This document shows positions 1 through 60,972 of a stretch of 64,000 nucleotides of DNA, one piece after another. The translations under genes and the position numbers were made by a program. The notes below the pieces were generated by a model. It saw only the letters and a list, made by a program, of their open reading frames with translations, was not told the origin of the DNA and did no database searches. Each line of letters starts with the position of its first letter. Position 1 is the stretch's first letter. This DNA comes from Umbribacter vaginalis (GTDB lineage: Bacteria; Actinomycetota; Coriobacteriia; Coriobacteriales; Eggerthellaceae), in assembly GCA_001552935.1 (NCBI GenBank), contig KQ959713.1, positions 62,911 to 126,910 on the forward strand, in the 5' to 3' direction.

Positions 1-625
1 TGCGCGTACGCACTTTGGCACATACATGCGCAAGTCCATCTTTTACAGTAAGAACAGGTGTAATTTTCACCAGCCCGCCAAAGAACGCTGCTGCGTTCCC
101 AATGCGCCCACCTTTATGCAGAAACGTAAGTGAATCGGGAACAAACAAAAAGCGTGTCGACTGAATACCTGATACCACTTCCTGAGCACAGATCTCCAAA
201 CTTGCACCAGCATCACGCGCTGCAACACCGCGCAAGAGCGGCCACGATTCATCGTATGAACACGACGTAGAATCAACCAGCGCATATTTAAAGTTTGCAT
301 GGGAAGCGTTTACTTCACGCGCAGCACGCAGCGCGCCTTCATACGTTCCTGACAAGCCAGAACTGACAAACACACCCAACAACTCGTCGCCAGCTTGCGC
401 AATATCGGTAAAAATGCGCATGAATTGTTCTTGTGATGGCTGCGACGATGTGGGAATATCATGAATCATCTGGCTTATATTGCCATAAAATTCATCGATG
501 TTCATTTCATTTTCGACAAATTCCTGGCCATGATAATTAACAAATAAAGAAACCACTTGAATATCGTGTTCGCGCGCAAATTGAGCAGGCAAACCTGCAA
601 CTGAATCGGTGACGATGCGAATCAT
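1..625 (-). CDS. DegV family fatty-acid-binding protein (3' end outside window)
   Basis: About 208 N-terminal residues of a DegV protein are visible and the rest runs off the left edge. DegV proteins bind a fatty acid and in Gram-positives act as the binding subunit of fatty-acid kinase (FakB); that role is family knowledge. Seen directly are the N-terminal IRIVTDS strand, the TSSQPS motif, the SSGLSGTY lipid-site motif and the LTFLHKGGRIG motif. The ATG at 623-625 follows a good Shine-Dalgarno, CCAAAGGAG. The gene is last in a minus-strand run after pncB, 87 bp away. Which fatty acid it binds cannot be told. Confidence 0.88.
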   Translation of the reverse strand, partial: MIRIVTDSVAGLPAQFAREHDIQVVSLFVNYHGQEFVENEMNIDEFYGNISQMIHDIPTSSQPSQEQFMRIFTDIAQAGDELLGVFVSSGLSGTYEGALRAAREVNASHANFKYALVDSTSCSYDESWPLLRGVAARDAGASLEICAQEVVSGIQSTRFLFVPDSLTFLHKGGRIGNAAAFFGGLVKITPVLTVKDGLAHVCAKVRTR

Positions 626-712
626 ACAATCTCCTTTGGTTAAAGTTCATCTACTATACCAAACATCACGCTTTCATTCCACTAAAGAGCGATTTGCACA
701 CGTAACGTGCAC

Positions 713-2167
713 CTATTCGTAACCTAACAAATGAGCTACCAATGCGCTACGACTTTCAAAAATACCCTTTTCTAACCCAACAGGGTAGGTATGCGGATTT
801 AACATACGCTTCTGTGTTTCATCAAGCTGTTCAAGTGAAGCCTTCGTGCGCTGCTGAGCAGCATGCACATCACGAAGCTCGTCTGCTAAAACAATCGATC
901 CTTTACGCGCAAGAGGCTTAAGCAAGGTAGTATAGCGCATGCCATGCAAGCGCTTTCTGCGCAAATGATCGTGCGGATCAATGATAATTTCGTCTTCATT
1001 AACAGCTTTATAAATGTCAAAAATCATGTCCCCTGCAAGGCGTCCATCAGCATCAATATAACGACGCACATCAAGCACGCCCGGAATAGTAAGCTTTTGC
1101 GCACTTCCGGTAATTTTTACGTGATCGTGCCACGCTTGCTGGTTAGATGCGCGCGTTGCGCTTAATTTGTACACGCCACCCAAAGTAGGCTGATCAAACG
1201 CACACGCTAAACGGGTACCAACACCCCAACCAGCTACACATGCTCCTTCAGCGCGAATAGAACTTATTGAGTATTCATCTAAATCGTTTGAAAGAAACAC
1301 GCCTGTATCGTGTAAGCCCGCCTGGTCAAGCAGGGTTCGTGCGCGTTTTGCAAGCCACGCTAAATCGCCAGAATCAATACGAATGCCTATTAAATGTTCT
1401 CCGCGCTGTTTCATCTCTAAACCAACGATGATAGCGTTTCGTATTCCCTGTTCAACCTCATATGTATCAACAAGCAACACGCAATCATGAGGATAACTTT
1501 GTGCATATGCCCGAAATGCATCGAGCTCTGTTGGAAACGACATCACCCATGAATGAGCGTGCGTTCCCGAAACAGGAACACCATACATGCTTCCTGCGAA
1601 GACATTTGATGTTGAAGTGCAACCGCCTACAATGGCGGCTCGCGAAGCCCACAGCCCGCCAACAGGGCCCTGAGCGCGTCGCAAACCAAACTCAGCAACG
1701 GGCGTTTGCGCTGCTAAACACACACGTGCTGCCTTTGTTGCAATAAGCGTATTAAAGTTCACACAGTTCAAAAGCGCCGTTTCTACAAGCTGACAATCGA
1801 CAAGCGATCCAGTTACACGAACCAAAGGCTCATCAGGAAAAACAACGCTGCCCTCTGCAACTGCATCAATATCAAGCGTCAATTCATGTGTTTGTAAGAA
1901 GTGCAAGAAATCATCATGAAAGAGTGCTCCACCACTGTGCGATGGTATGCTCTTCAAATAATCAATATCACGTGCACTCCAGTGAAAATGCTCGATAAGC
2001 TGGGCAAGTTGCTCCATACCACACGCAATTGCGTAGCCGCCTTTAAACGGATAATCGCGAAAATACATATGGAAGCACGCTTGTGTTTCGTGAATACGAT
2101 GTTCAAAATAACCTTGCGCCATCGTAAGCTGGTACAAATCGGTCGACAATGTTTCACTGAATTCCAT
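713..2167 (-). CDS. pncB: Nicotinate phosphoribosyltransferase
   Basis: Converts nicotinate, PRPP and ATP to nicotinate mononucleotide in the Preiss-Handler NAD salvage route, in the cytoplasm. The 484-residue protein opens with the family motif TDLYQLTMAQGYFEH. It carries EFGLRRAQGP, a GTHAHSW segment containing the histidine that is phosphorylated in the family, LLVDTYEVEQGI and the phosphate-binding IRIDSGDLA. The open frame extends 52 codons further upstream, but the extension is Arg-rich and overlaps ricT; the ATG at 2165-2167 has a GGGAG Shine-Dalgarno and begins right at the conserved N-terminus, so I chose it. It lies 70 bp behind ricT. The length fits the long PncB class. Confidence 0.93.
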   Translation of the reverse strand: MEFSETLSTDLYQLTMAQGYFEHRIHETQACFHMYFRDYPFKGGYAIACGMEQLAQLIEHFHWSARDIDYLKSIPSHSGGALFHDDFLHFLQTHELTLDIDAVAEGSVVFPDEPLVRVTGSLVDCQLVETALLNCVNFNTLIATKAARVCLAAQTPVAEFGLRRAQGPVGGLWASRAAIVGGCTSTSNVFAGSMYGVPVSGTHAHSWVMSFPTELDAFRAYAQSYPHDCVLLVDTYEVEQGIRNAIIVGLEMKQRGEHLIGIRIDSGDLAWLAKRARTLLDQAGLHDTGVFLSNDLDEYSISSIRAEGACVAGWGVGTRLACAFDQPTLGGVYKLSATRASNQQAWHDHVKITGSAQKLTIPGVLDVRRYIDADGRLAGDMIFDIYKAVNEDEIIIDPHDHLRRKRLHGMRYTTLLKPLARKGSIVLADELRDVHAAQQRTKASLEQLDETQKRMLNPHTYPVGLEKGIFESRSALVAHLLGYE

Positions 2168-2237
2168 TGATGTCTCCCTTGTTGCGTGAACACATGTTTG
2201 TTCGTTACTGACTTTCCACGTGCGAAAACGGGGTGCT

Positions 2238-3656
2238 CTACAGCTCGTGCGAACGGCGGCGCGAACGGCGATGAACCGGTGCTGCTTGCTGCGTCGTGAC
2301 ATCGGCGCTGGGTGCGGGCGCATCGGTTCTCACGCGAGCGCTGCGTATACGGCGCTTACGATGCGTCGCGGAAAGCTGCTGTTCTTCCTGCGAAGCGTCA
2401 AACGTGTTTGTTTGCGCATCCTCACGTGAACGCGCATGAAAACGCGCGCTTTCGGTGCGCGGCGTGCGCGAAGAAGACGCTTGCTGTCCATCGCGGCTGC
2501 TGCCCATGTCACGGCTGCGGCGCGAACGGCGTTCCTCCTGCGTACCCCGCGCGCGACGTGCTGCGCGTTCATCCTGTTCACCACGCGCTTTACGCCCATG
2601 CGACGATGCCTCCCGAGCGCTTCCTTCACGCGTTTCGTTAGATGCCACAGCGCTCGCACGCTGGCTTGCACGCGCATCATAGGTGTCATTAAACTTCTGG
2701 CGCATTTCACGAGAATGCAAAGCTTGTGTTTCATTATCGGTAATTTTTACTGAACTTACCGTTGATACATGCCACTCATCGCCTTCTTCAGCACGACGAA
2801 TAGCCTCATTCCACTGGGCGCGTTTAATATAGCTTGGTCGCTTCTCGCCGTTTTGTGTGCGTAAATCACTCAAAGGCACTTGCACTAAGCGTCCTTCTTC
2901 AATTTTAAGCGACACCATCTCACGCAGTACGTTTATGTCATTAATATATGCTGTTCCATCAGGCGTTTCAATAGGTGCATTCATCTTTGGAGCACGAGCG
3001 TACACTTCCTTATACGCTTCAACTTCATAGCGTAAACAACACATTAAACGCCCACAGGCGCCCGTAATTTTTGGCTGATTGAGCGATAAGCCTTGATCTT
3101 TTGCCATACGAATAGAAACAGGGTTAAACTCGCCACCCAAACGCTTACAGCATAGCTCTTGCCCGCAATGGGCAAGTCCGCCTACAATACGTGCCTGATC
3201 ACGTACGCCAATTTGCACTAAATCGACACGCACATGAAAGCGCCCGTACAATTTTGGAATAAGCTCGCGAAAATCGAGGCGTTCTTCCGACTCAAAGTAA
3301 AAAATTGCTCGATCGCCATCGAATAAAAACTCAACAGCAACAGGCTTCATCTCTTTAATCGTTTCTGCTGCAAGTTTTTTGAATTCAGGAAGCGCTTTGC
3401 GAGCCTTATCGTCCAACTCAGCCGAGCGCAACACATCTTCATCGCTCGCTACACGCACGACAGGTTTAAGCGGGCTTTTAAGAGCACGTAACTGTTCCTC
3501 GCTTGGTTCGAAAACAGGCATGTGAACAGCTCCAAACTCTTCGCCGCGCACTGTTTTAACGATAACAGAATCGCCAACTTCAAGCGATAAATCACCCGCA
3601 TCAAACCATAAGGTTTTTGGGTTATATGCCAACCTAACAGGGGCTACACGAACCAT
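2238..3656 (-). CDS. ricT: PSP1-domain protein RicT (YaaT family) with Arg/Ser-rich tail
   Basis: In Bacillus, RicT (YaaT) is part of an Fe-S complex that directs RNase Y and influences development; only that family role is known here. Residues about 1-300 hold the PSP1 domain. Cysteines at about 164, 169, 170 (ELCCKRL) and 201, 206, 207 (GACGRLMCC) are the conserved cluster ligands. From about residue 320 to 472 the protein becomes low-complexity, rich in Arg, Ser, Ala and Glu, which is not part of the usual domain and suggests a disordered nucleic-acid-binding tail. The start overlaps the end of holB by 23 bp. The order tmk-holB-ricT matches the classic Firmicute neighbourhood. Confidence 0.9.
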   Translation of the reverse strand: MVRVAPVRLAYNPKTLWFDAGDLSLEVGDSVIVKTVRGEEFGAVHMPVFEPSEEQLRALKSPLKPVVRVASDEDVLRSAELDDKARKALPEFKKLAAETIKEMKPVAVEFLFDGDRAIFYFESEERLDFRELIPKLYGRFHVRVDLVQIGVRDQARIVGGLAHCGQELCCKRLGGEFNPVSIRMAKDQGLSLNQPKITGACGRLMCCLRYEVEAYKEVYARAPKMNAPIETPDGTAYINDINVLREMVSLKIEEGRLVQVPLSDLRTQNGEKRPSYIKRAQWNEAIRRAEEGDEWHVSTVSSVKITDNETQALHSREMRQKFNDTYDARASQRASAVASNETREGSAREASSHGRKARGEQDERAARRARGTQEERRSRRSRDMGSSRDGQQASSSRTPRTESARFHARSREDAQTNTFDASQEEQQLSATHRKRRIRSARVRTDAPAPSADVTTQQAAPVHRRSRRRSHEL

Positions 3657-14003: not shown

Positions 14004-14020
14004 ATAGTCTCCTTTATCGA

Positions 14021-14041
14021 GGCTTGGTTTCCGACCAAGCC
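14021..14041 (-). promoter_or_regulatory. Leader hairpin upstream of rpmE
   Basis: GGCTTGGT and ACCAAGCC form a perfect 8-bp stem around a 5-base loop, ending 17 bases before the rpmE start codon and just before its ribosome site. There is no T run, so it is not a standard terminator. It could be an autoregulatory L31 or RNA-stability element; this is inference. Confidence 0.5.
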
Positions 14042-43050: not shown

Positions 43051-43148
43051 TGGCGGAGATGCGTGCGAATCGAACACACCCAAGACGTTCTGCGCGCCTC
43101 ACAACGGCTTTGAAGGCCGCGGGCTCCACCAGGAAACCTTCCATCTCC
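43051..43148 (-). tRNA. selC: tRNA-Sec (anticodon UCA)
   Basis: A 98-nt minus-strand tRNA. The acceptor stem GGAGATG pairs with CATCTCC, with an encoded GCCA end. The anticodon stem-loop is GCGGC-CTTCAAA-GCCGT with anticodon TCA (complement at 43111-43113), reading UGA. A long variable arm and a T-loop TTCGATT with 5-bp stem follow. Length, UCA anticodon and long variable arm are diagnostic for selenocysteine tRNA. It stands alone, far (13 kb) from selAB. Confidence 0.95.
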
Positions 43149-53787: not shown

Positions 53788-55467
53788 CTATCTTTTCGCG
53801 CTGGCGCGTTTCTTTTTGCGCACGCCTACAAACGCAGCAAGCGAAAGCGTCATCATTGAAATGAACGCAAACACTGAAGACTCGTCGCCTGTTTTTGGCA
53901 TTGCGTGCATCGGTCTGCAAGACTGGCACGTACGATCAGAAGCATCTTGTAACACTGCAGGTTGTGGCAGAGATACTGGAGTAGAAAGCGCTGAGGAAGG
54001 TGTTACCGCTTTAGGGTGTTCAGGCACGTTCTGGGGCTTTGGTGTTGCAGGCGCATCGATCGCGCGAGGCACTAAAGGCACCGCAGTCGTATTATTTTGC
54101 TTCGACGTTGGAGGAAACAAGGAAGGCAACGGCGATGTCGAGGAAGAATCGGCATCATACACGGCATATACCGTCGTATCTTGATCCACGATACTTGCGC
54201 CCGTAAACACTGCGCCCGTTCCATCTTTTTTCGTGCTCCACTCTTTAAACGTGTAACCCAATTTCGTTGGATGCTCCGGCATTGATTGATCCTTTAATGT
54301 ATCCGTATCAATTGCCTTGCCTGTTTCCACTTTCACGTTTGCTAGTTCTGCGTCATCGCTGTTCTTGAATGTTACCGTAGCGCGAATTTGTTTCCACTGA
54401 GCAGTAAACACCGTATTGAGCTTCAAGGCTAATGTATCTCCGGGTTTGTGAACACCTCCAGTGGCGTCGTGCCAATGTAAGAATTGGAAATCGGTGCGCG
54501 AGGGTGCATCCAAAAGCGTAATGATGCTATTCTGTCGAACAGAGAGGTCTTTCTCGGTTTTGGCATCGCTAAATTCGCCGCCGTTAGCGTTAAACCTAGC
54601 TTGTGCATTCCACTGCGCGCGCAGCAAAAATATACCATCATACAAGGGGTCGATAGCCTCGTCGTTAAAGCGTATCCAATCACGGCTGTAATCTGAAAAG
54701 GGAGATTGTGGCCCCCAATAGTAACGCATACCAACACGGCCGCTTTTTCTGTACGATTCCGTATCAGGCAGTTCTGTAAACCATCCACCAAACACAAGGT
54801 TTGCCTTCGTTGGATCTGTCGGAAAATCAACCGTATTATCCCTTTTTACTATATTTGTTATTGAGTCCGACTTACCGTCAATTTTTCCTCCCTGTAAGTC
54901 AAATTTCACTTTCATTTGTGCTAACGAAATGCGGATAGGCGTGCTGCTATCAACGACCGCTTGAAATTGAGCATAATTTTTAATTGGCTTAGGATAGGTA
55001 TAATCAGATTCCCACGAAAGATTGTATCCATCGGGAATCTGTGAATCGTCAACTATAATTGTTACTTTTTCGCCGTTGGCAAAATTGCCAACCGTACGTT
55101 CACAATGAAGGTTCAGATTTTTTTGGACCTCATATGTATTCCCTTGCGCATCTATAACCGTTATTGGAAGGTTTTTCCACATAGCTTCCATTGCAGGGCT
55201 CAGCTGGCCAAGCGCTCCTGGTGTTGTGTGGCCTTTTCCTATTGCAGCTAGATAGTTAAAAGAAATGCGAAGCGGTTTCTTTTCTACCGCTTTAGGCGCT
55301 GTTGGAGATGTTGTTGCAGTCATATCTTTTGGTGCGGGTGTAGCTACTGTTAGCTCTGCGGACTTCACTTCGCCAGCCTGAGCTGGCAGTGGCACCATAC
55401 ACAAACTAGAGCTAACCATCAGTACCATCGTAAGTTGACCAACATGTTTCAAACTACTCGTCTTCAT
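53788..55467 (-). CDS. LPXTG-anchored surface protein with Listeria-Bacteroides (InlB B-type) repeats
   Basis: A 559-residue secreted protein. The signal peptide is VGQLTMVLMVSSSLCMVPLPAQA; a Pro/Ala-rich segment follows. Three InlB-B/Flg_new-type repeats have the pattern VxFDLQGG ... FGGWFTE, ARFNANGGEF ... FLHWHDATG and ATVTFKNSD ... FKEWSTKKDGTG. A Pro-rich stalk leads to the sorting signal MPKTGDE, a hydrophobic helix and KKKR. The ATG at 55465-55467 has AGAGGAATT. No leucine-rich repeats are present. A 15-unit CTGT tract 144 bp upstream could alter its expression. Confidence 0.9.
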   Translation of the reverse strand: MKTSSLKHVGQLTMVLMVSSSLCMVPLPAQAGEVKSAELTVATPAPKDMTATTSPTAPKAVEKKPLRISFNYLAAIGKGHTTPGALGQLSPAMEAMWKNLPITVIDAQGNTYEVQKNLNLHCERTVGNFANGEKVTIIVDDSQIPDGYNLSWESDYTYPKPIKNYAQFQAVVDSSTPIRISLAQMKVKFDLQGGKIDGKSDSITNIVKRDNTVDFPTDPTKANLVFGGWFTELPDTESYRKSGRVGMRYYWGPQSPFSDYSRDWIRFNDEAIDPLYDGIFLLRAQWNAQARFNANGGEFSDAKTEKDLSVRQNSIITLLDAPSRTDFQFLHWHDATGGVHKPGDTLALKLNTVFTAQWKQIRATVTFKNSDDAELANVKVETGKAIDTDTLKDQSMPEHPTKLGYTFKEWSTKKDGTGAVFTGASIVDQDTTVYAVYDADSSSTSPLPSLFPPTSKQNNTTAVPLVPRAIDAPATPKPQNVPEHPKAVTPSSALSTPVSLPQPAVLQDASDRTCQSCRPMHAMPKTGDESSVFAFISMMTLSLAAFVGVRKKKRASAKR

Positions 55468-55610
55468 AATTCCTCTCGAATCATATTGCATATAGTTTGT
55501 GCAGTAAAAATTGACACATCGTTATAACAAACAACAGGCGGTTATATACCTATGCATCCGGCATAAACGTTATAAAAGGATACGAGTAGATAAGGTGAAT
55601 GCGATTTACT

Positions 55611-56039: not shown

Positions 56040-57491
56040 ATGCCAACACCAGAACAACAAGCATTATTGCGTCAATTACCGCAGATTGAAGAACTGCTTC
56101 ACCATGAAGCTCTTGCTGGGCTTACAACACTGTATCCACGCACCGTTGTGGCTGACCAAAGCCGAGAAGTGTTAGACTCATTGCGCAGTGACATTCTTTC
56201 AAGCACGCTTTCTAGCGTCAATCTCAACGATATTGTTACGCGCGTACTGAAGCGCTTTGTTGCGCTCGAGCGCCCATCGCTGTGTCATGTTGTTAATGCA
56301 TCAGGCGTTATTGTACACACGAACCTAGGGCGAAGCGTTCTTGCGCCATCGGCTATAGAAGCGGTCAACGATGTTATAAAAGGTTATTCTACCTTGGAAT
56401 ATAGCACACAAACTATGCAGCGAGGTAGCCGTCACGACCATTATGAAAAGCTGGTATGTAACATTACAGGCGCGCAAGCTGCCATTGCTGTCAACAATAA
56501 TGCGGCGGCCGTTATGATGGTTCTGCGCGAGTTTTGTGAGGGGCGCGAGGCCATTATTTCGCGCGGTGAACTGGTAGAAATTGGAGGCTCGTTTCGCGTG
56601 CCTGATATTATGCAGCTTTCAGGCGCACACATGGTTGAAGTAGGAACAACCAACAAAACGCACATCTTCGATTATCAGCGCGCACTGTCACAAAACACAG
56701 GTTTGCTGGTTAAAGTTCATCCGTCGAATTTCCGCATGACGGGTTTTACGGAGGAGGTGCAGCTAAAAGAGCTGCGCGAACTTGCCGATACGTTTCTCCA
56801 ACAAACGGGCGGTACGCACAGTGCGCCTTTGGTGTATGAAGATTTGGGATCGGGTGCGCTGGTTGATATTTCCGCATGCGGTATTAAGGAAACAACGGTA
56901 AGCGAATGTCTCCAGCAGGGCGCAGATTTGGTGTCGTTCTCGTGCGATAAGCTGCTGGGTGGCCCGCAAGCAGGCATTATCGTGGGCAACAAGGAACTGA
57001 TTGACCGTTTGAAGAAAAATCCGCTGGCACGTGCGCTTCGCCTTGACAAAATGACAATTGCAGCACTTGAGGCAACACTGCGCCTGTATTTAGACGAAAA
57101 CGATGCTCGCGCGCTTATTCCAACACTGCACATGCTCTCAGAGCCACTGGCTGATATTGATCAACAGGCACAAGAGCTGTGCACGTATCTTAAAAACTCA
57201 CTGAATAGCAGCTGGGTGAACGTAAGCGTGGAAGATGAAATTTCGCGTGCAGGGGGCGGTGCGCTGCCGATGTGTGATATTCCTACTAAAGTAGTAGCTA
57301 TTGAATTCCTGCAAGGAAGTGCACTAAAGTGCGATCGCTTCTTAAATCAGAACAGTACGCCACCGATAATTGCTCGCTTAAAAAATGAACACCTGCTATT
57401 CGATGTGCGCACCTTGCTTGGAATGGTCGATTTTGAATGTATTTCTCAGGCATTACGCAACTACTTTGAGCAGCTGAACGGCCGCAAATAA
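56040..57491 (+). CDS. selA: L-seryl-tRNA(Sec) selenium transferase
   Basis: Pyridoxal-phosphate enzyme that converts seryl-tRNA(Sec) to selenocysteinyl-tRNA(Sec) with selenophosphate. The 483 residues include the N-terminal tRNA-binding domain, NASGVIVHTNLGRSVL, the YSTLEYSTQTMQRGSRHDHYE segment and the PLP lysine K304 in SFSCDKLLGGPQAGI. The ATG at 56040 has GAAAGG. It starts a selA-selB-selD run, with 303 bp before selB. Confidence 0.96.
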   Translation: MPTPEQQALLRQLPQIEELLHHEALAGLTTLYPRTVVADQSREVLDSLRSDILSSTLSSVNLNDIVTRVLKRFVALERPSLCHVVNASGVIVHTNLGRSVLAPSAIEAVNDVIKGYSTLEYSTQTMQRGSRHDHYEKLVCNITGAQAAIAVNNNAAAVMMVLREFCEGREAIISRGELVEIGGSFRVPDIMQLSGAHMVEVGTTNKTHIFDYQRALSQNTGLLVKVHPSNFRMTGFTEEVQLKELRELADTFLQQTGGTHSAPLVYEDLGSGALVDISACGIKETTVSECLQQGADLVSFSCDKLLGGPQAGIIVGNKELIDRLKKNPLARALRLDKMTIAALEATLRLYLDENDARALIPTLHMLSEPLADIDQQAQELCTYLKNSLNSSWVNVSVEDEISRAGGGALPMCDIPTKVVAIEFLQGSALKCDRFLNQNSTPPIIARLKNEHLLFDVRTLLGMVDFECISQALRNYFEQLNGRK

Positions 57492-57794
57492 CGTAAAGAA
57501 TGTTACAAACAGGCGCGTTATGAGTGGTGCTGAAGCATTGCAGATAAGCTGGCGATCAGGAATAACAACCGCCGCTGGTGCCTAGGAACAATTTTCGCTC
57601 ATGCGTAGGAAGAACAACGAACTTGTAGGACGGAACTAGCGAGTAGGCATGGCAACGAACTGGTAGGACGGTACTGCTGCAACGAAATACTGCAAAACGC
57701 AATAGTGCTGATCAACAGTACTATTGCACCACAAGGCAGCACAGCTGCACCACAATACACCTACGATGTCAGGCATAAAGGTAAAGGAACTCAT
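57492..57794. other. Spacer between selA and selB
   Basis: Contains an imperfect direct repeat CAACGAACT(T/G)GTAGGACGG(A/T)ACT at 57615-57637 and 57653-57675. Otherwise nothing recognisable; the selB frame stays open for 30 codons of it. Confidence 0.5.
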
Positions 57795-59714
57795 ATGGCT
57801 CTTCAACATATTATCCTTGGCACAGCAGGCCATATTGATCATGGCAAATCGACCCTTGTCAAAGCGCTTACCGGCACCGATCCCGACCGTCTTCAAGAAG
57901 AAAAAGCGCGCGGCATAACTATCGAGCTTGGCTTTGCACAGTTGCCTCTTGGCAGCAACCTTGTGTGCGGCATTGTTGATGTTCCTGGTCACGAGCGTTT
58001 TGTGCGACAAATGATTGCAGGAGCAACGGGGATTGATTTAGCGCTACTTTGTATTGCCGCAGATGACGGCATTATGCCGCAAACGCGTGAGCATCTTGCT
58101 GTTCTTGAAATGCTTGGGGTTCAACATATGGTTGTTGCGCTTACGAAGTGTGACTCGTTCGATGATGAATGGATTTCCCTGCTCACCGACGACATTCGCG
58201 CATTTCTTGCCGATACTTCCTATGCGCAGGCAGCTATTATTCCCACATCGGCACGCACGGGCCGCGGCATTCCCGAGCTTAAAGAGTCCCTGCTACAGGC
58301 AGCAAAACAATGCAAGTCACTTCATACAAACGATATTATGCGCATGCCAGTTGATCGTGTGTTTACTATCAAAGGGGCTGGTACCGTTGTTACGGGAACG
58401 CTCTGGAGCGGTACCGTTCGCAAAGATGATGATCTTGAAATTCACCCATCGGGCGCGCTTGTACGCGTGAGAGGCGTGCAAAGCCACGACACAAACTGCG
58501 AGTTAGCGCATGAATCGTCACGTGTTGCACTGAATTTAGCAGGTATTACAACATCGGATATTCGCCCTGGCTGTGTGCTTACATCGCCGAACAGCATTAC
58601 CGATACCGATCGCTTTGATGCGTTCATCACGAACTGCGCACCGCTCAAAAAACGCCCGCTTAAAACGGGAACGCGCCTGCGCATTGCTCATGGTACTAAA
58701 GAAGTGTTCGGGCGCGTGTTGCTAATGAACAAGCAGGAAAGCCTTGAAAGTAACCAGCGCACGTTTGCGCAAATTCGCCTTGAAGAATCGCTTACGATAT
58801 GCGAAAACGACCGTTTTATCTTGCGAACGCAATCGCCTGTGTGCGTGCTGGGCGGCGGCATTGTGTTGCGCGCGCACCCAAAACGCCGCACCACTCTTGA
58901 CGCGCTAGAAGAATCGCAGCTGAACGCGCTGCTTAAAGGCGACTACGCTACCGCGTTTTCCTGCGCACTTGAACGCGCAACGGCGCCGTTTACGCTTGCA
59001 GATTTCCAACATTTATCGGGGCTTCCTTTGAAGGAATGTGCACAACGTTTGCAGGAAGCGTGCAGCACTAATCTGGTGGTTGCACTCGGTGCATTTTATG
59101 CGCCTCGCGCGCTTCAAACGCGGTTGTCCTCAAGCCTTGAACAAACGGTGCTCAGCTACCATCAGGCGCATCCCGACAAGCGAGGTATGCCAAAACAAGA
59201 GTTATTCTCTCATATTGCGTCCAAGTTTCATCCGCCCCTGCCTGTGGAATGCTGTGAAGCGCTGCTAAACTTTCAGCTGACAAAGGGCGCGCTTGAACTT
59301 GACAACGCTCTCGTTGCACATAAAAAGGCCGCAGGTGGAGCACGTAAAAACGACGAAACATTGAAAGATACGCTGCTTACTGCACTTCGTGATGCAGGAA
59401 GTGCCCCTCCCCTTCTACCTGCACTTTTTAAGCAAGCAGACATTCACAATACCTCGCTTGCATACCGCATTATTGGTGCGCTTGCAGCAGAGGGTTCCGT
59501 GGTACGTATTCAACCCGACCTTGCATTTGAAAAACGTGCCTATGAACAGCTGAAAGATGCCGTCGTGCTCTATTTACAAGCGAACACACGCGCGCAGGCT
59601 GCCGACCTAAAAAACGCTATGGGTGTCTCGCGCAAATATGCTATTCCACTGTTGGAATACTTTGACAGTAAACACATCACAAAACGAGCAGGTGATTTTC
59701 GTGAACTTGCCTAA
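57795..59714 (+). CDS. selB: Selenocysteine-specific elongation factor SelB
   Basis: Delivers Sec-tRNA to UGA codons by binding the SECIS hairpin. The 639-residue protein begins with GTPase motifs GTAGHIDHGKST, DVPGHERFVRQ and TKCD. EF-Tu-like domains follow, and the C-terminal part consists of winged-helix domains that bind SECIS RNA (ending GVSRKYAIPLLEYFD). The ATG at 57795 with AAAGGAACT starts exactly at the family N-terminus; 30 upstream codons are spacer. The end overlaps the proposed selD start by 14 bp. Confidence 0.96.
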   Translation: MALQHIILGTAGHIDHGKSTLVKALTGTDPDRLQEEKARGITIELGFAQLPLGSNLVCGIVDVPGHERFVRQMIAGATGIDLALLCIAADDGIMPQTREHLAVLEMLGVQHMVVALTKCDSFDDEWISLLTDDIRAFLADTSYAQAAIIPTSARTGRGIPELKESLLQAAKQCKSLHTNDIMRMPVDRVFTIKGAGTVVTGTLWSGTVRKDDDLEIHPSGALVRVRGVQSHDTNCELAHESSRVALNLAGITTSDIRPGCVLTSPNSITDTDRFDAFITNCAPLKKRPLKTGTRLRIAHGTKEVFGRVLLMNKQESLESNQRTFAQIRLEESLTICENDRFILRTQSPVCVLGGGIVLRAHPKRRTTLDALEESQLNALLKGDYATAFSCALERATAPFTLADFQHLSGLPLKECAQRLQEACSTNLVVALGAFYAPRALQTRLSSSLEQTVLSYHQAHPDKRGMPKQELFSHIASKFHPPLPVECCEALLNFQLTKGALELDNALVAHKKAAGGARKNDETLKDTLLTALRDAGSAPPLLPALFKQADIHNTSLAYRIIGALAAEGSVVRIQPDLAFEKRAYEQLKDAVVLYLQANTRAQAADLKNAMGVSRKYAIPLLEYFDSKHITKRAGDFRELA

Positions 59715-60972
59715 CAATGAGTACATGACGCGCACAAAGCATGAAGAAGCCAGCGAAGCAGCGCGTGCACAAGAAGAAAAGGGCCTTGCAAACAGCGCAG
59801 ATGCTGTGAAGGAAACGGCTCAAGGAGCGAATCTAGCGGCGGCTCAAGGGGCGGTGTCAAACGCAGTTCCATCCGCAGCACCAGACGCAAACCAAGGAAC
59901 CGCAGAAACACGTTCTGCATGTGAAACGGTAAAACTCACGCGCCTTACTTCAAAAGGCGGTTGAGCAGCAAAATGGGGTCCGGGCGACCTTGCCACTATT
60001 CTTAATACGCTAAAACCGCAGGCAGCAAGCGAGCTTATGCTTGGTTTCGAAACAAGCGACGATGCTGCTGTCTACAAACTTAACAACGAACAAGCGGCCA
60101 TTCTGACGCTTGATTTTCTAACGCCGATTGTTGATGATCCGTACCAATTTGGACGCATTGCCGCAGCTAATGCACTATCGGATGTATTTGCAATGGGTGC
60201 TACACCGCTTTGTGCGCTTAATATTGTTGCACTTTCTCCATCGCTTGGAAATAATGTTGCCAGCGCTATCTTGCAAGGTGGGCTGGATGCTGTTAACGAA
60301 GCAGGAGCGGTGCTGGTGGGTGGGCATTCCATCGATGACACTGAGCCAAAATACGGACTTGCGGTGCTTGGAATTGCACACCCATCGCGGATAATTCGCA
60401 ACGCAGGCGCACAGCCGAGTGACGCACTGTATCTTACAAAGCCCCTTGGAACAGGTATTTTGGGGCAGGCATTCCGAAAGGGCCACATCGATCAGGCGGC
60501 ATTTGAGCCGGCAATTCAATCGATGATGCAGCTTAACGCCGCCGGTTCGCGCGCGATGCAAGCAGCACACGCACATGCAGGAACCGATGTAACGGGCTTT
60601 GCACTTGCAGGTCATTTGCATGAAATGCTGCAGGCAAGCAAGGTGGGCGCACGTCTTAATTGGGATGCCATTCCTTTGTTGCCGCGCGTGTGGGACTTGT
60701 GTTGCAAGGGCATTTTGCCTGGCAGATGCGCCACAGTGATCGACTTTTCACGAAACTTTATCGATTCAGGTACACTTGATACCCAAACACTGCAGCGGCG
60801 TTTGGGCGTGCTGTGCGATCCACAAACCTCAGGCGGCTTGCTGGTAGCAGTTGACGAGCACAATGCTGCGCGCTTTGAAGCAGCATTTTGTGCAGAAACA
60901 GGCGTTGTACCTGCGCGCATAGGCACGTGTATAGAAGATGAAACGTGTTCGATTCACTTTGCAGACGCCTAA
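59701..60972 (+). CDS. selD: Selenophosphate synthase, a selenoprotein (UGA at 59962 read as Sec)
   Basis: Makes selenophosphate from selenide and ATP. The reading frame crosses TGA at 59962-59964, with clear SelD sequence on both sides: LTSKGG-U-AAKWGPGDL, then TLDFLTPIVDDPYQFGRIAAANALSD, DVTGFALAGHLHEML and DPQTSGGLLV. The Sec (U88 from the GTG start) takes the place of the catalytic Cys17 of E. coli SelD, and K91 keeps the spacing of Lys20. The first ~75 residues are a low-complexity Ala/Glu/Gln extension. The start is uncertain: GTG 59701 (after GCAGGTG) or ATG 59725. A short SECIS-like hairpin follows the UGA. Confidence 0.93.
59965..59993 (+). promoter_or_regulatory. Candidate bacterial SECIS element in selD
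   Basis: GGGTC (59976-59980) pairs with GACCT (59986-59990) around a CGGGC loop; a lower GCA/TGC stem with a 5' bulge extends it. The apical loop lies 17-21 nt after the UGA and has G among its first two bases, meeting the published general features of bacterial SECIS hairpins. Confidence 0.65.

Follow-up and report, generated by a model that had tools for sequence, protein, structure and literature searches.

Among bacterial selenoproteins, SelD and FdhA have the widest distribution (PMC1794560). In a prokaryote reference set, selenocysteine (Sec) forms make up about 19% of the SelD genes, and Sec always occupies the position that it has here (PMC4561486); an earlier sequence-only reading of the locus described here had granted that the principle of a Sec-containing SelD was known, and both reports bear this out. 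Proteins of this kind have been described since the 1990s. In bacterial Sec-SelD, as at the present locus, Sec is found at the N-terminal catalytic position, the UGA is immediately followed by a hairpin, and the full SelA/SelB/SelC apparatus is present. The rules for such bacterial hairpins (bSECIS) concern the stem, the loop, the position of a G, the distance from the UGA, and the folding energy, for which the limit is -7.5 kcal/mol (PMC13188914).

The gene considered here, selD (selenide, water dikinase), lies on the forward strand at 59701-60972 of the window, that is, the whole stretch of 64,000 nucleotides of Umbribacter vaginalis that was analysed. It starts with GTG at 59701, six bases downstream of a ribosome-binding-like AGGTG (59690-59694), and its product has 423 residues when the UGA is read as Sec. 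The sole stop in the frame is the TGA at 59962-59964, and the remainder is intact. The joined protein matches the SelD profile TIGR00476 with 370.3 bits (cut-off 125) over residues 78-388, which correspond to positions 1-310 of the 311 in the profile; since this match runs across the UGA, the earlier view that SelD sequence continues on both sides of the TGA is confirmed. In the alignment with Escherichia coli SelD (PDB 3u0o), the in-frame TGA (Sec88) falls in the column of Cys17 and Lys91 (codon 59971-59973, forward strand) in that of Lys20. The three-residue spacing to the Lys is therefore correct, and the UGA indeed stands at the catalytic column, as had been claimed. A mechanical ORF caller divides the gene into 59623-59964 and 60037-60972, which is the splitting that had been foreseen for automated callers. 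In the assembly, a 1.70-Mb draft of 50 contigs and 92% completeness, a SelD profile search found no second full selD, because the other two matches are partial and weak, at 40 and 24 bits where the cut-off is 125; a second copy within an assembly gap keeps a small probability. The phage records searched gave no match.

The machinery for Sec insertion is present in the same window. selA (Sec synthase; 56040-57491, forward strand; TIGR00474, 535 bits) and selB (Sec-specific elongation factor; 57795-59714, forward strand, start chosen by inspection; TIGR00475, 370 bits) score above their NCBIfam cut-offs and lie directly upstream of selD. selC, which encodes tRNA-Sec with a UCA anticodon (43051-43148, reverse strand), is located about 13 kb from selA and was recognised by ARAGORN and by Rfam (RF01852, 62.8 bits), so that the earlier assignment of tRNA-Sec, SelA, and SelB to this window is upheld by all these matches. 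The genome also contains three formate dehydrogenase-type genes (L133, L134, and L138) with an in-frame UGA in the FdhA motif (CARVUHAPTVAGL, CARTUHGPTVIGL, and QARVUHSSTVAGL), and a codon ending in U precedes the UGA in all three. A 2-selenouridine synthase was not found in the genome, the sole match being weak and 33 residues long. Between selA and selB, a gap of about 300 bases (57492-57794) holds no recognised RNA or gene, and an Rfam search around it returned no known control element; in three congeners, the two genes are almost contiguous. Farther upstream, between gdhA and selA, the reverse strand encodes an LPXTG-type cell-wall anchor protein with List_Bact_rpt similarity (53788-55491), for which no match was obtained in the congener stretches searched. 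An L31-Coriobacteria leader matches at 14009-14041 of the window, which makes Coriobacteriia the most likely class, with Eggerthellaceae as the probable family.

The UGA is widely shared by relatives. One TGA is found within the selD match in all four genomes of the genus, the source genome included, and a strong SelD match occurs in 73 of 138 genomes of the family, nearly always with one TGA inside. With the residue at the catalytic column left unconstrained in the search, Cys stands there in one of the family loci read (G273, locus L008) and U in all the others; elsewhere in the order, Cys-SelD with the loop AGCGAK is common. SelB and SelD are both present in 70 of the 138 family genomes and both absent from 62, with 6 discordant cases. 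The lineage had been put forward as part of the novelty of this gene, a claim which is unsupported, as Sec-SelD is usual in the family and common across the class. Two draft genomes of different genera carry a second SelD-like gene directly after the Sec-selD (L107 of G416, 2048-3097; L105 of G400, 406-1389, minus strand), and its catalytic column is Ser (GGSASK) or Ala (NGAAAK). These genes resemble SPS1 of animals, the copies with neither Sec nor Cys; no further copies were seen in a class sample which left out G416 and G400.

The candidate bSECIS element is an apical hairpin at 59975-59991 (forward strand), in which the arms GGGGUC (59975-59980) and GACCUU (59986-59991) enclose the loop CGGGC. 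The distance from the UGA to the loop is 16 nt (59965-59980; rule, 16-37 nt), the stem has 6 bp and the loop 5 nt (rules, upper stem 4-16 bp and apical loop 3-9 nt), and a G is present in the first two loop positions, as the rules ask. As to the energy, the hairpin alone reaches -5.4 kcal/mol, short of the published limit, and the -8.7 kcal/mol of the 49-nt stretch belongs to another fold, the minimum-energy structure being different from the hairpin (-8.7 versus -6.2 kcal/mol). When four stretches around the UGA were folded from this sequence alone, none stood out (z 0.72, 0.05, 1.81, and 0.09), and the local stem probability of the window's own sequence is 0.0085.

Comparison among relatives gives a different picture. 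Codon usage was tested on 92 distinct Sec loci collected by motif, 70 of the family (the window included) and 22 of the rest of the class. Of the 74 Sec genes with Gly at codon +5 after the UGA, 70 write it GGT. By comparison, GGT accounts for 9% of the Gly codons in those genes (p 1.7e-63) and is used by 4 of 24 Cys homologues (p 2.7e-13). Because the sequences are related, these p-values overstate the number of independent events, but the comparison inside one set of genes is a strong control. When codon +5 is Ser, it is AGT in 10 of 10 genes. Enrichment is also seen for CCG at +6 and CTC at +9, and the third base of each lies in the loop or stem, so that synonymous constraint is found at codons +5, +6, and +9. 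The consensus of the 74 sequences with GAC at +8 gives a 6-bp stem with a 5-nt loop, and the stem probability averages 0.45 with GGT but about 0.05 once any synonymous codon takes its place. Six relatives with the motif APGAL are devoid of the usual pairs, and in them the stem re-forms after a shift of a few bases, with codons +5 and +7 contributing their third bases to an A-U, G-C, or C-G pair. Even the distant selD genes of Neomarinimicrobia keep the arms GGUC and GACC. The reality of the hairpin is thus supported by comparison and not by the folding of its own sequence alone. The SECIS-like hairpin proposed by the sequence-only reading is present and upheld by the family, though single-sequence folding adds nothing to it. 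The comparison thus yields a clear data set for Coriobacteriia, in which synonymous selection maintains the selD hairpin and a changed protein sequence shifts it by a few bases, a natural experiment on the requirements of SelB. Two further codon preferences were observed in Coriobacteriia. At +12, the rare Ile codon ATA is used in 41 of 62 Ile-bearing selD genes against a background of 7% (p 1e-28), the window having ATT, and at -1, the codon immediately before the UGA, 87 of 92 Sec-selD genes have GGT, for which the background is 9%. Misfolding avoidance as the cause of either preference was tested by SECIS stem folding and was unsupported.

Isolated stops are a frequent type of error in draft assemblies, and together with the poor folding of the hairpin in its own sequence this could suggest that the UGA results from a sequencing error or from early decay, the gene being broken or truly a Cys gene. 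However, three congeners and about 70 family loci have their UGA at this very column, so that it is neither error nor decay; the synonymous selection on the hairpin throughout the family and the otherwise intact frame also argue against this explanation, which the congeners have largely refuted already and which is vanishingly improbable. The proposal that SelD is a selenoprotein in its own right has good support from the catalytic column, the full Sec machinery, these family loci, the conserved SECIS, and the failure to find another selD in the assembly. Read from these sequence comparisons, the gene is almost certainly an ordinary bacterial Sec-type selenophosphate synthetase, in which Sec would be inserted via a SelB-bound hairpin.

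The start of the gene requires separate consideration. The first 76 residues or so (59701-59928, forward strand) form an Ala/Glu/Gln-rich extension, and the GTG start overlaps the stop of selB by 14 bases. In the open frames of the congeners, the candidate starts lie about 17 residues before U and the tail is absent, which could mean that the true start is also downstream here, with the tail left untranslated. Otherwise, the tail could be the scar of a gene lost between selB and selD, since the order in three congeners is selA, selB, FAD-binding flavoprotein, selD, nth, and the flavoprotein gene is missing between selB and selD in the source genome. (This gene of the congener sel clusters is of the FAD_binding_2 type; L224-L226.) The codon composition stands against an untranslated tail: the in-frame codon score is +23, compared with -25 and -36 in the other forward frames, and shuffles of the tail score -29 +/- 10, with 0 of 2000 reaching +23. 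The ribosome-binding-like sequence before GTG 59701 is another point against it. On balance, a downstream start or a scar is fairly unlikely, even if a scar that is now translated would be compatible with the data. The simplest history would be a local deletion by which selD came to lie beside selB and gained new coding sequence at its upstream end. The extension is of low complexity, and searches yielded neither a domain match nor a function. Hence, of the novelty earlier attributed to a tail of about 75 residues, what stands is its coding composition and its restriction to the source genome among the four of the genus, while no function was found for it.

By analogy with the family, synthesis and activity of this SelD may be pictured as follows. 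SelB carrying Sec-tRNA-Sec would bind the short hairpin 16 nt past the UGA and bring Sec to position 88. This residue lies in the flexible N-terminal catalytic loop and would participate in converting selenide and ATP to selenophosphate. Selenophosphate would then be used by SelA to form Sec-tRNA-Sec, and translation of selD would probably be coupled to that of selB through the 14-base overlap. With a catalytic Sec, SelD could be synthesised only where its own product is available, a circular dependence which is real if Sec is inserted. As a logical consequence of Sec at the catalytic site, this dependence might act as a selenium-sensing switch, with collapse below a threshold and self-sustained synthesis above it; the idea had been raised by Guimaraes et al. 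in 1996, whose title, as cited in PMC8659212, asks whether an autoregulatory mechanism exists. Nevertheless, all organisms with Sec-SelD share this wiring, Cys-SelD occurs in many relatives within the class, and nothing in the window bears on sensing, so that a switch is very unlikely. That Sec-SelD, its translation directly after selB, and the added tail make up a bistable circuit for selenium sensing in this lineage is highly improbable. Given the three formate dehydrogenases with UGA in the genome, the self-dependence of SelD is better regarded as part of the normal Sec economy.

The Sec-SelD described here is therefore the ordinary form in its family, and the finding is sound and ordinary. 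Its value lies in the correct recovery of a gene whose catalytic codon makes standard ORF calling break it. The density of Sec-SelD in the family, the moving hairpin, and the tail are what is added, and the picture of selenium biology is unchanged. SelD proteins fused at the N-terminus to NADH dehydrogenase-like or NifS sequences (PMC4561486) likewise carry their extension at this end, but the fused parts are recognisable domains and the partner is almost always Cys-SelD, in contrast to the low-complexity extension without a domain match seen here. With respect to bacterial Sec-SelD in general, the present gene differs in this extra segment of about 76 residues and in the weakness of its individual hairpin. 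E. coli SelD (3u0o) belongs to the same family and has the same catalytic Lys, but Cys17 takes the place of Sec and the loop is AGCGCK. The solved SelD of Aquifex aeolicus (2yye/2zod) has Cys at the Sec position of the solved chain and is without the long tail, whereas its loop SGCAAKVGPGDL is close to GGUAAKWGPGDL of the present protein, and the match extends over residues 76-392.
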